Assembly (NCBI RefSeq): GCF_027580225.2 | Contig: NC_073361.2 | Coordinates: forward strand, 23,640,001 to 23,704,000 | Source: Misgurnus anguillicaudatus | Taxonomy: Eukaryota; Chordata; Actinopteri; Cypriniformes; Cobitidae | Direction: 5' to 3' | Length of the DNA stretch: 64,000 nucleotides | Shown: positions 25,848 to 34,971 of the stretch, one piece after another | Layout of the letters: the number at the start of each line of letters is the position of its first letter | Position numbering within the stretch: position 1 is the first letter of the stretch | The notes under the pieces: generated by a model | What the model was told of the DNA's origin: nothing | Seen by the model: only the letters and a program-made list of their open reading frames with translations | Databases searched by the model: none | Translations under genes and position numbers: made by a program

Positions 25848-28800
25848 TTATTTCTTTTTGTAGTCTCCTGTGTAGGCACGGTGATCATCCTGGCCAGGAT
25901 ATCGGGCACCGTATCCTCTCATGAGATCCTGAAAACTGGGTGCACCGGGTTCCTGAGGGCCGTATCCAGCATACGGATCCTCTTGTCCGCTCATGTAAGG
26001 GTCGTATTGCTGCTGATCGTAGCCTGGGGTCTCGGGGTAGGACTCTTCCCGATGCTGGGGAAACTCCTCGTGGTTGCTCTGCTCATCGCTGTGGTCTTGG
26101 GTTGGCTGGGCCACGTGATCTTCATCCTGAGGTGAAGGACTGGCATGCTCGGCCCCCTCAGGCTCGTAGCGGCGCAAGCGGCAGTTTCTGTCATATTCTG
26201 GGTCGCAGTCGGGGTCAGGCTCGACGACTCCATTCCTGCTTCCATCGTTATTCAGGTGGGGCTCGAAGGCTTCGGAGGGGAGGTGTGCCGGTCTTTGCGC
26301 ACCGGTGCGTGGGTCATTCCCCAGTGGGAAGCACTCTTCATCGTAGCCGATATAGCAGTCGTATCCCTCTTTGGTCTTCCCACGAGGCCCCAGAGGACTT
26401 TGAGGCTCTTCTGGTTGGTGCCTTTGTGGCTGGAGATGGGTGGGCAGGCGTCTGCGCATGTCAGCTGCTGCAGATGCATCACGGTACATGGCGTAGGGGT
26501 CGTGGCGAGTGCTGGGAGGTACGCGCATGGCGCCGGCTTCGGAAGCAGGCTCGTCCCTTGGTCCTTTGATGGACAAGCTGGCAAACCTTGCAGCTGTGAG
26601 TGGGTTGCAGTTGTCATCGTAGAGAGGATTGCAGGGTCTCTCCAAAGCCGATGGAGAAGATTGAGCAACAGGATAAGTGCAGTACGGGTCCACACGAGGA
26701 TCACAGTAAGGATACTGCGTGTACAAACTAGCTGGTGCCTTTTGGACCGGTTGTGGTGCACAGTAAGGATCGGTCTTAGGGTCACAGCCGAGGTGGGCGT
26801 AGGATGGAGCCAGGACAGCAGCGGGCTTGTAACCGTAGGCGGCACGGAGGTGGTACTGCAGACACTCGACATCCTCCGCATCACAGATGCGCAACAGCTC
26901 GGCCTTCTGCTCAGCTGACAGGAAGGACTGCATCAGCGGAGAGTAATAGTATTGACCGGAACGTGGGTCCTTCACTACAGCGCTATGGAGGTAGGCTGGG
27001 CCTTTCACTGGAGCAGGTGCAGGGGCAGCTTTGACAGGGGCTGGGGCCAGGTAAGGGTAATATGTGTATCCCTTAGGGTACGCGCAGTAAGGGTCTCTAG
27101 GGTCACAAGCCTTGACTGGGGCAGGTGCCTCAACTTTGGGTGTGGGTCTGCTTGTGTAAGCGGCCACACAGTTTGGGTCATCAGTCTCAGAACAGGATTT
27201 GTAGATGTCGGCGAGGTGCTGGAGGTACAACTTGTAGGAGCGACGTGACTCAGCACGGTTTTTATTCTTGAGGTATGCCAGATAGACACGATCGAGCTCT
27301 GCAACCTGGAAGACGACATGAATGATATTGATGCAAGTAGCCTTAAACAAGAAGATAATAATATGCAACTAAAATCATAAATGATCCACTCACTCCCTCC
27401 TGGTTTCCATTGTCAGTGAAGTATTTGTACCAGCTCCAGAAGTCCGAGTGCTGCTTGTACCAACTGATGTTTCTTCGGTTGCGGATCAGTCTTGTTGAGC
27501 CAGCCTCAACGTTTGACTTTTCGTTGATTCCATCTGTCAGAAACATTACACATCACTGTCGAATCCTAACATTCATACATGCATTATATATCTATAAAAC
27601 AATACATGTGATATGATGTAAAATTTGGTAAGTATGAAGCCTTACGTGGCCAAACCTACCATCTCCTTTTAAGCGCTTGATCACAGGCCCAGCCAGCAAG
27701 AACTCTGTTTAAATATAAGAGCATAGTGAGAGAGAAATTAAGGGGTTCAGGTCTCGACCAGATGTTGCAGAAAATGCTAACAAACAGTAATGAGCAAATG
27801 AGCTGAGGAAAGCAGGATGCAGTTTTACAAGTTAAGGGGGAAGGTAAGGTGGTAACATACAAGGTATTGTGGGAAATTAATCTTCAAACGGTGCACATCA
27901 GCACTTTGATGCCTGGCAGGCGTCGCAGTAACCAGACCTTTATATGCAAACTATAAAATCTACAAAGGCGAAAGCTCTTCTTCTACAGGTGAGCCTAATT
28001 ATACTATAAACGAAAATATTTTAACCTTATGGATCATATGTGTCATCAGTGTCTCACTCTCACTTGTATGAGGTGGGTACATGATACGCTGATCCCCAAA
28101 GTAGGTTCATTTTTATGAGCTTGTTAAAGTCGTGGCACATCTGGAAACCGATGTGTTGTTTTGCTGACAGCTGTTAATTACTTTACCAGCTACCTAGCAA
28201 AAACTACAGTATTCTGCAACCAGATACCTCCTGTTTTGCTACAGGGCGTTAGTGAGTGAATTCAGTATAATGATACAATGAGTGATGTTTAGGGGCCTTT
28301 AACAGATGTTGTAGATATCATAGTAGCCTACTGCTACAAAATGAGATTCATACATAAATCAAAGCTGTTAGATATACGATCATTGTAACAATATACAGTA
28401 CACTGTCCGAAAAAAAATGGTCCCTTGCTGTCACTTGGGCATTTTCAAACAGTACACATTTGTAACTAAAGAGTTCATGATAGTACCTCAGAGGTACATA
28501 CTGGTACAAAAAGTGTATATAAGGTACCTCAAATGTACCAAATGTATACCTATCTGTATCTAAATGGTAGGACATTTTAAAGGGTACTGCCCCTGCGACA
28601 GCTGTGGGCCATTTTTGACCATTTTCTTCCGATCAAAAGTTTGGAAACACTTGACTGAAATGTTTCCTGTGATCCTAAAAATCTTTCATAGAAATTTTGT
28701 AGACAAAATATAGTTGTCAAACATACACTGTAAAAAAAACTTTGCTGCCTTAACATTTTTTGTTAAATCAACTCATATTTACAAGTCATGTCAACAGAAA

Positions 28801-29243
28801 TGAGTTGTCACAACTTATAAAATATAGTTGAGAAAAGTCAACTTAAATTGTATAAGTTATAACAACTCATCCCTCGTCAAGATAAATAATAGTAAGTTGA
28901 AATGGCTTGTAAATCTGAGTTGATTCAACAAAAAATTTAAGGCAGCAAAGTATTTTTTAAAGTGCACAAATTTCTTTAATAGATATCAAAAAATAATATT
29001 ATCAATTTTTATTTTAGATTATTTAGTCAGAGCATAATTACTATTGCTACATTTGTATTATTCTTTAGTTTTGATGAGTTTACTATGATTCTAAAATATA
29101 AATAAAGAAGTGATTATAAATTTTTGACCAGTTGTGTATAACTTAAAATCACAAAATCACTCATCCTTACCAGGTAATAACAATGTGGCCAGCAGCATTC
29201 CAGCGAATGCATGGAAGAGGGAAGATCGTCCCAAGCGAGCCAT
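25848..29243 (-). CDS. and (actinodin; paralogue not resolved): Actinodin, structural protein of fin-fold actinotrichia
   Basis: Secreted component of the collagen-like actinotrichia that support larval fin folds and growing fin rays; the family is absent from tetrapods. Coding exons (minus): 29,171-29,243, 27,660-27,704, 27,394-27,533 and 25,848-27,305, with introns of phase 1, 1 and 0, giving 571 residues. Residues 1-25 are a signal peptide (HAFAGMLLATLLLP). A basic 'RNRR' is followed by a W-x4-SDFW-x4-YF domain (64-82) and 'ELDRVYLAYL'. The last exon carries spaced two-cysteine units typical of actinodins: 'CDPRDPYC', 'CDPKTDPYC', 'CDPRVDPYC', 'CNPLYDDNC', 'CYIGYDEEC' and 'CDPEYDRNC', in Pro-, Tyr- and Ala-rich linkers. 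The acidic His/Gln/Pro-rich tail ends 'DYKKK'. A non-coding 5' exon is likely, because an acceptor-like site precedes the ATG exon. Confidence 0.9.
28395..28610. mobile_element. MITE rich in GGTACC-like units
   Basis: In actinodin intron 1. It starts 'acactgtccgaaaaaaaatgg' in part and contains several 'ggtac' and 'gtacc' inverted steps ending near 'gcccctgcgacagc'. A relative lies at 30,589-30,802. Confidence 0.55.
28726..28964. mobile_element. MITE with CACTGTAAAA termini
   Basis: In actinodin intron 1. The left end CACTGTAAAAA...ctttgctgccttaa is mirrored by ttaaggcagcaaag...TTTTTTAAAGTG. The interior pairs 'tgagttg' with 'caactca' motifs. It is 239 bp and non-coding. Confidence 0.75.
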
Positions 29244-33562: not shown

Positions 33563-33774
33563 GATTGCAGCTTTAAAATATGAAAAAAGCCCTTTTAATA
33601 CAACTTATTAATAGCAACATTTCATCTTAACCCAAAAGTACATTTTGACAAAAGTACAATGTATGGCTATAAATTCATGCAGTGTTACATAACTCTGTTG
33701 ATATAAACTAAAATGATTCGTGAACCAGTCAACTCTATGTTCAATGATCACATCAACTCAATGATCAAATCAAT

Positions 33775-34971
33775 TCAATGTTCATGCTGTGCAGCCACTT
33801 CATAGCCCAGCGTGTCTCCCAAGTGCTGATGAGCAAAGAATGTTCTGGCCATTTCATTGATCTGGTTGTAGGCCCCAATGCTGCGGAAGTACTCCACATA
33901 GTTCCAGAAATCTGAGGTGGAATATGGCCAGTAAGGCACAGCTGGAGGTTCATCATAGGGTACTATGTGTAAGAGAAGAAGAGAGCTTATGTATTCCTTT
34001 AGAATTACCACATTCCAGAACAGAATATACAGAATTTCTTGTACAACACTCTAAATTGACTCGGAAATGCATAGACAATATGCAGTTGTAATCAGCACTG
34101 AATACAAATTTAGTTAATCAAATCATTTTTTTATCATTTACTCACCATTGTCACCAAACCTATATGACTTTTTAACTTTTTTATGGTAGATTTTTCAGAA
34201 TTTTACTGCCTGACAGCCCCATCCCTCTCATTGTATTAAAGTAAAGTATACAACAAACATGAAGGCTGAATGAACGAGTCAAATGTAACATTCTGCTATT
34301 TGTGTTTCAGAAAATTAACATTTATTACAGTCCTATAGGTTTGAAGGCAAGTAAGATTGAGATGTTTTTTTATTTTTGTTGTGTCTCTTTAGATTCAGAT
34401 TATTGAGAACGTAGAAAATGAGAACGGCATCCTTAGTTAGTATATACACAGTCTAAAGTTGTGTAAACAAGAGTAAATAGTCTGGTTACCTCCTTCAGGA
34501 ATGAATCTGGCAACTGTAAGGGAAGTAGGCAAAGGAAGAGTGAATGAAATTTGAATTCCTGGACACAAAGAGCTGATTCACACACACAGAGAGGAGTCAA
34601 ATCCCCCAGAGGTTTCAAGAAATTTGGATTTTCCTCTCTAAATATTATTCTTAACTATGAATGCACTGTTTTTGTTTTGAACTGCTCAACACTGTTAAAC
34701 TAAAAACACTGTTCAAAATTATTATTTTTTATTTATTGCATAAATACTGTATAAAACATTTATGACTGTTTACCAAACAATGCTCTAAAATACAAGCATA
34801 TTTAATGTATTCATATTCTAAAAATTGTGTTTGCAGAATAGTTCAATGCAATGTACAGAAATAATAATAATAGTAGTGTAAGGAAAAATATATACCGCTT
34901 ATTTACTCACCACTGAAATTATTGGCAAGAAAACATAGAAAGAAAACACCAAAAAATGCACACATCTTCAT
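33775..34971 (-). CDS. otos: Otospiralin
   Basis: Small secreted protein known from inner-ear fibrocytes and supporting tissue. Coding exons (minus): 34,911-34,971, 34,490-34,513 (only 24 nt) and 33,775-33,962, with both introns in phase 1, giving 90 residues, close to the 89 of mammals. Residues 1-20 form a signal peptide ([13 protein letters not shown]). The mature part has the family signature '[17 protein letters not shown]' and '[18 protein letters not shown]'. ATG at 34,971 is chosen; an in-frame Met two codons later is possible. An acceptor-like TTTTTAG just before the ATG and a donor-like site at about 35,169 suggest a non-coding first exon near 35,170-35,290. The neighbour is cops9, as in human 2q37. 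Confidence 0.95.

Follow-up and report, generated by a model that had tools for sequence, protein, structure and literature searches.

Actinodin, otospiralin and augurin as probable members of one superfamily: evidence from the otos-cops9-actinodin1 locus of the loach Misgurnus anguillicaudatus

The window analysed here is a stretch of 64,000 nucleotides (nt) from the loach Misgurnus anguillicaudatus (C25:23640001-23704000, from an assembly of 1.12 Gb). It carries the genes for otospiralin (otos), cops9 and actinodin1 (and1), all three on the minus strand and with intact open reading frames. Actinodins were reportedly named by Zhang et al. in 2010, and their relation to otospiralin and to a third family, augurin (ECRG4), is the subject of this work. 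The original prediction, made from the sequence of the window, held that actinodin is a derived tandem copy of otospiralin. The coordinates of the gene models are given in Table 1.

Table 1. Gene models and features of the otos-cops9-and1 locus, in window positions.
Feature	Position	Strand	Description
otos exon 1	34911-34971	-	61 nt, signal peptide, phase-1 end
otos exon 2	34490-34513	-	tiny, 24 nt, phase 1 at both sides
otos exon 3	33775-33962	-	188 nt, complete otospiralin domain and stop
Shared domain within otos	33829-33930	-	residues 40-73 (W40 to H73), translation checked
cops9	31499-32991	-	exons 32929-32991, 32331-32403 and 31499-31536; PF15004, E 1.6e-33
and1 exon 1	29171-29243	-	73 nt, signal peptide, phase-1 end
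and1 exon 2	27660-27704	-	tiny, 45 nt, phase 1 at both sides
and1 exon 3	27394-27533	-	140 nt, 5' phase 1, 3' phase 0
and1 R-N-R-R, furin-type R-x-[KR]-R	27472-27483	-	residues 57-60, immediately N-terminal to domain
and1 phase-0 intron in domain	27306-27393	-	GT..AG; after G86, 23 residues from W64
and1 exon 4	25848-27305	-	1458 nt; domain end (27273-27305), long tail after
and1 cysteine-pair tail	26181-27194	-	residues 124-461; 16 cysteines in 8 pairs, partly CDPxxDPxC-like

The spliced otos protein matched the Pfam family OTOS (PF15182) with an E-value (E) of 1.1e-39. The spliced and1 model was 100% identical over its length to the public Misgurnus anguillicaudatus actinodin1, and some of its cysteine pairs are exactly the CDPxxDPxC of the actinodin repeat. 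The and1 gene of the window is thus an ordinary actinodin1, and what is new is the relation of its family to otospiralin and augurin. As had been proposed, the gene models place otos and and1 on one strand with cops9, which encodes 57 residues, between them; no further gene was noticed in that interval, where no gene finder was run. The two genes had also been said to share a signal-peptide exon, a tiny exon and a domain exon. The signal-peptide exon, the tiny exon (24 and 45 nt) and the phase 1 of the first two introns were found in both, but a third and1 intron had been overlooked. This phase-0 intron splits the shared motif, so that the first 23 residues of the and1 domain are the last 69 nt of exon 3 (27394-27462). 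Because otos has no intron at that place, the domain exons of the two genes are not equivalent at their 3' ends.

The tail of and1 also contains two cysteine pairs, at residues 124-132 and 227-234, that by eye follow helix-like stretches (YLQHLADIYKSC... and AEQKAELLRIC...). The two stretches are alike, are unlike the CDPxxDPxC repeats, and perhaps arose by an internal duplication.

The gapless alignment of otos and and1 that had been described was recovered over 34 columns with 11 identities and a BLOSUM62 score of 64, beyond all shuffles (0 of 4000 for the actinodin N-terminus and 0 of 800 for the longer protein). The motif, in the form written for this analysis, is present in 114 of 119 actinodin and 112 of 120 otospiralin sequences, with the fused model P0013 left out and the actinodin set drawn from the 120 of 358 matches listed. 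After removal of duplicates the profiles held 108 unique segments for actinodin and 105 for otospiralin. The profile-profile comparison that had been suggested as a check was significant: hhalign of actinodin1 with otospiralin alone gave P = 9.6e-7 and 6.7e-8 in the two directions, and none of 1000 column permutations reached the observed score (best 24.1 versus 37.1). When loach and2, and3 and an otospiralin-like gene were added, P became 1.1e-8 and 1.3e-8 (score 46.8, 0 of 800 permutations), and with and4 as well it was 9.4e-9 and 4.7e-9. As a yardstick, and1/2 and and3/4 were compared with each other in the same region, giving P = 6.1e-9 and 1.3e-9. The enlarged actinodin-otospiralin match equals this within-family match in strength.

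Against the Pfam OTOS model, which like the Augurin model (PF15187) has a gathering cut-off of 27 bits, the loach and1 N-terminus scored 15.1 bits (E 0.021) and the full-length protein 8.6 bits, both sub-threshold, and the and3 segment scored 14.6 bits, also under the cut-off. Twelve actinodin1 N-termini were chosen from 43 diverse segments and all 12 matched OTOS (best E 0.0013). By Pfam score actinodin is not a member of PF15182, only a relative. The and3 segment scored 19.0 bits with otospiralin. AlphaFold2 predicts two helices in each domain, at residues 44-57 and 60-71 of otos and at residues 69-80 and from 84 of actinodin, which are in register at an offset of 24 residues. The block-mean confidence is 88-95 for otos 41-70, 79-88 for actinodin 71-100 and 66 for actinodin 61-70. 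Sequence searches of the PDB with both profiles gave unconvincing best matches (E 2.1 for otospiralin; E 0.035 for actinodin, to an ester hydrolase). The homology of the otospiralin and actinodin domains is well supported.

Augurin was the second Pfam match on the loach and1 N-terminus (E 0.059), and the Augurin model matched 6 of the 12 actinodin1 segments (best E 0.0018). The N-terminal segments of the shorter actinodins scored over the cut-off, with 29.1 bits (E 1.2e-6) for and3 and 27.9 bits for and4; full-length and3 was just under it at 26.6 bits. Values under the cut-off were obtained for and2 (17.1 bits full length; 20.2 bits and E 7.1e-4 for the segment) and for and1 (14.0 and 14.5 bits). 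A search of the whole loach genome with the Augurin model scored eight candidates and returned six matches: four are ecrg4 exons (C8 and C17), and the other two are the domain exons of the short actinodins. As genomic exons, and3 (21.2 bits, E 0.23) and and4 (19.7 bits, E 0.69) are sub-threshold, and both matches stop at profile position 64, which is the augurin exon junction (on C17 the matches run 18-65 and 65-114). In hhalign, and3/4 matched three augurins over 52 columns with 37% identity (P = 2.4e-7, 0 of 500 permutations); the aligned region extends upstream of the domain to include a shared segment and the R-x-[KR]-R site. All actinodins together gave P = 1.3e-5 and 1.8e-7 with augurin (0 of 500 permutations).

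The loach genome holds four actinodins with cysteine-pair repeats and one exon layout: and1 on C25, and2 on C2, and3 on C16 and and4 on C12. We assigned the labels and3 and and4 ourselves to the two short genes, and they may be reversed. The one stop counted in and4 is the gene's own final stop, and its exons 2-4 are open. A phase-0 intron lies exactly 23 residues past the first aromatic residue of the domain, from which the count starts (W; Y in and2), in all six genes compared (and1, and2, and3, and4, ecrg4a and ecrg4b), and it is absent from the loach gene models of both otos and the otospiralin-like gene. The frames of P0246 and P0265 reach the same intron position of an actinodin1. In and1, and2, and3 and ecrg4a the layout is a signal-peptide exon, phase 1, a tiny exon of 45-48 nt, phase 1, the domain exon, phase 0 and a last exon. 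Exons 2-4 of and4 fit the layout of ecrg4a, and the domain exon of ecrg4b likewise runs from phase 1 to phase 0. The tiny exon is 45 nt long in each of and1-3; its length is 42 nt for and4, 48 nt for ecrg4a and 18 nt for the otospiralin-like gene. The search of the loach genome did not recover exon 1 of and4, and the gene model of ecrg4b leaves its tiny exon unsettled; the predicted first exons are the sole candidate of a hydrophobicity scan for the otospiralin-like gene and one of two for ecrg4a.

An R-x-[KR]-R site precedes the domain in and1-4, the otospiralin-like gene, ecrg4a and ecrg4b. It was present in 113 of the 113 actinodins in which the pattern located the site (119 examined), and in none of the 114 otos sequences in which the domain start was located (120 listed). 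Augurin resembles actinodin in its signal-peptide exon, tiny phase-1 exon, domain exon from phase 1 to phase 0, same-residue intron, R-x-[KR]-R site and 52-column profile match with and3/4. It differs in having no cysteine-pair repeats and a short last exon: 150 nt in loach ecrg4a versus 630-1458 nt with repeats in the actinodins, which do not have the short augurin C-terminal region. Otospiralin resembles actinodin in the domain match of 34-38 columns (gapless with and1), in the tiny phase-1 exon and as a chromosome neighbour, and differs in that otos has no phase-0 domain intron, no tail and no R-x-[KR]-R site, although the otospiralin-like gene has one. Because of the phase-0 intron and the augurin match of and3 and and4, actinodin appears nearer to augurin/ECRG4 than to otospiralin. 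A tree of 20 rows and 69 columns split otos and the otospiralin-like gene from actinodin and ecrg4 (99/99) and joined ecrg4 to and3/4 (93/96). It is short and came with a long-branch warning and an unsettled bootstrap, and for these last two reasons it was taken as a hint.

Over the loach genome the OTOS model found one other gene, the otospiralin-like gene on C8 (51.5 bits). It is followed on the same strand by ecrg4a, with the stop of the former at C8:37953125 and the start of the latter at 37954851, a gap of 1,725 bp (4.1 kb with the alternative first-exon candidate of ecrg4a). This order mirrors otos-cops9-and1. Upstream of the pair is an SH3-domain gene, which we take to be nck2. Since the otospiralin-like gene and ecrg4a, a pair of the same kind, sit on a different chromosome from otos and and1, the tandem arrangement seems to predate actinodin. 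We expected the and3/4 genes beside the otospiralin-like gene, and this was ruled out by their positions on C16 and C12. The gene that adjoins and3 encodes an MCM helicase (C16:27778000-27787999, PF00493, E 9.3e-36), presumably mcm7-like.

The linkage of and1 and otos was compared by eye in 22 teleost species among the matches listed, using the length of the longest contig of each sequence cluster. In 17 the two lengths are identical, which puts both genes on the same contig: Triplophysa dalaica, Chanos, Trichomycterus, Osmerus mordax, Cyprinodon, Aplochiton, Plectropomus, Anarhichas minor, Syngnathus acus, Esox, Solea, Synchiropus picturatus, Lota, Merluccius merluccius, Channa argus, Zoarces and Tachysurus ichikawai (131,698 nt). 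In the Danionella model P0013, lipocalin, OTOS, COPS9 and actinodin follow one another within a single fused gene. COPS9-actinodin fusions were also seen in Coregonus and Lampris models (P0243 and P0057), and P0027, an actinodin, carries the name COPS9 isoform X2. These four models are either annotation errors or read-through between neighbours.

We propose that actinodin, otospiralin and augurin form one superfamily in which actinodin is the augurin-type partner of an old, duplicated tandem pair, and we give this reading a probability of roughly three in four. The homology, exon layout and linkage behind the superfamily are supported computationally. Its members would be secreted and would share a short domain, a helix-turn-helix of some 35-40 residues. 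In the gene, the signal-peptide exon and a tiny phase-1 exon precede this domain, which usually comes behind an R-x-[KR]-R processing site. The origin would be two genes in an old head-to-tail arrangement, first one of otospiralin type and then one of augurin/actinodin type whose domain is split by a phase-0 intron. A duplication of this pair, which probably dates from the genome duplications early in vertebrate history, would have left otos(-cops9)-actinodin1 as one copy and otospiralin-like-ecrg4a as another. Actinodins would then be augurin-type members whose last exon expanded into a long cysteine-pair tail, producing a fin-fold fibre protein. The actinodin precursor would be secreted and presumably cut at R-x-[KR]-R; the released N-terminal hairpin could dock on a partner, either collagen or further actinodins, and the eight cysteine pairs of the tail could cross-link the fibre (elastoidin).

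Published work, cited throughout from excerpts of the papers, bears on several of these steps. Two ancestral actinodin genes, and1/2 and and3/4, are described (PMC4764851), the and3/4 proteins being much shorter than those of and1/2 (PMC13120675). A second otospiralin paralog is present in gnathostomes (PMC13188829). Zebrafish and1/and2 double mutants are without actinotrichia (PMC13120675). Descriptions of augurin speak of a hormone-like precursor and a tumour suppressor product rather than of a fibre protein, and at the corresponding place augurin carries a putative furin site, the mutation of which left Wnt repression unchanged (PMC10088197).

A further pedigree can also be drawn, in which augurin/ECRG4 is itself an actinodin-family gene and the sister of actinodin3/4. 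The loss of the supposedly fish-only actinodins in the transition from fin to limb would then be incomplete: tetrapods would have kept one as the precursor of a secreted peptide, short and without the tail, and otospiralin would be what remains of its partner in the ancient tandem pair. This is tentative, and we would narrowly bet against it.

The reading of actinodin1 as a derived tandem duplicate of otospiralin that acquired a long repeat exon, with augurin unrelated or a side issue, agrees with the neighbourhood of otos and and1 on one strand around cops9 and with the shared contig in 17 of 22 teleosts. It also agrees with the profile scores, the best P being 4.7e-9 against otos and a weaker 1.8e-7 against augurin, the latter from a three-sequence profile. 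The part of the original prediction that concerns homology of the domains stands on the profile-profile comparison, exon layout and teleost linkage. The pedigree does not fare as well, since the phase-0 intron and the augurin match of and3 and and4 point to augurin/ECRG4; no result supports the direction from otos to actinodin. Actinodin shares with ecrg4, and not with otos, both the domain-splitting intron and the segment just ahead of the domain; the parallel otospiralin-like/ecrg4a pair exists, and the published history places and1/2 and and3/4 in the gnathostome ancestor (PMC4764851, in the part available). We consider a derived otospiralin copy unlikely. An exon carrying the domain might instead have been shuffled into an unrelated fin-fibre gene, and the long cysteine-pair tail is indeed without counterpart in the otos and ecrg4 models. 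Yet the signal-peptide exon and the phase-1 exon of 42-48 nt also correspond between actinodin and ecrg4a (exon 1 of and4 not having been found), and the domain exon is asymmetric, phase 1 to phase 0, so that moved alone it would shift the frame. Of the explanations weighed, exon shuffling is to us the least probable.

Chance or convergence among short amphipathic helical hairpins bearing aromatic residues, with a coincidental chromosomal neighbourhood, has to be considered because the matched segment is just 34-52 residues long, otospiralin and augurin do not match directly, and unrelated Pfam families appeared from E 0.025 upward in the same scans. Against it, the profile scores are far outside the permutation nulls, the intron position and phase are identical, there are two parallel tandem pairs, and the match grew stronger when diverged paralogs were added. 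We regard coincidence as very unlikely.

Several observations nevertheless weigh against a single superfamily with an old tandem pair. The link between otospiralin and augurin passes only through actinodin: compared directly, the two gave P = 0.22 and 0.14 in hhalign, 166 of 500 permutations being as good, and a provisional human ECRG4 sequence had no match to the otos hidden Markov model (HMM). Alone, that human sequence scored 3.7 bits with the and1 HMM (hhalign P = 0.047). The augurin profile consists of three sequences, one of them provisional, and its match with actinodin1/2 is weak (P = 7.7e-4 and 9.7e-5). And1 is under the Pfam cut-offs of both OTOS and Augurin, and and2 alone matched otospiralin poorly (7.2 bits at best, P = 0.0011). 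The profiles are shallow, with an effective number of sequences (Neff) of about 2, and because Neff is low we trusted the permutations above the printed P values. The AlphaFold2 models are middling, with a mean predicted local distance difference test (pLDDT) score of 69.6 and 73.5 and a low predicted template modelling (pTM) score of 0.43 and 0.35. Foldseek against the PDB gave no match for otos and E 2.4 and worse for actinodin, which we treat as uninformative because the domain is a small helical hairpin. The tree, as noted above, is short and carries its warnings. The loach genome alone was examined in depth, and the adjacency of the otospiralin-like gene and ecrg4a was seen in that one genome. 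The linkage of and1 and otos fails in 5 of the 22 teleosts (Megalops, Arapaima, Xyrauchen, Anguilla anguilla and Oryzias melastigma); Xyrauchen is tetraploid, and the exceptions in Anguilla anguilla and Oryzias melastigma may be due to mixed assemblies. No non-teleost actinodin was among the 120 of 358 matches and 25 further matches listed; the 25 came from a protein search aimed at actinodin3/4 and non-teleosts, and the 22 of them inspected look like actinodin1 models or fragments.

Other features were observed in the window. Directly upstream of otos is an apolipoprotein D-like lipocalin gene (36112-36983, minus strand), of which one exon matched PF00061 (E 1e-9) and the remaining exons were recognised by eye. 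The resulting gene order agrees with that of the fused Danionella model P0013. Exons with Collagen-repeat and C1q-like matches at 20165-21107 (plus strand) perhaps belong to an adiponectin-type gene; the scores (Collagen 26.2 and 27.0 bits, C1q 19.5 bits) are all under the cut-off. In the long stretch 14159-15890 several frames of either strand are open and encode repeated peptides; by eye it has the look of a tandem-repeat array. A row of similar reading frames at 57888-59576 (plus strand), also judged by eye, is perhaps a local tandem duplication. The reading frames at 7269-8036 and 11369-11665 (both minus strand) we take, by eye, to be Tc1/mariner-type transposase-like.

In the open literature we found no paper that pairs actinodin with otospiralin or ecrg4, actinotrichia with otos, otospiralin with ecrg4, or augurin with actinotrichia or otospiralin; most subscription papers were outside the scope of the search, so the link may be in print. 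The kinship fits the expression of otospiralin in shark chondrocytes (PMC13188829, as excerpted) and ECRG4 as an articular chondrocyte marker (from a reference title in PMC10088197). Actinodins are described as fish-specific, and their loss may have aided the change from fin to limb (PMC13120675, in the excerpt). If the proposed kinship is true, the actinodin family, lost with the fins, may have living cousins in humans in ECRG4 and OTOS, and the origin of actinodin and its remnants in us would become testable. A structural protein of the fin fold would have originated as a secreted precursor that gained a cross-linking tail. Three proteins whose mode of action is unclear would share a common domain, and fin-fold assays could be applied to augurin and otospiralin.

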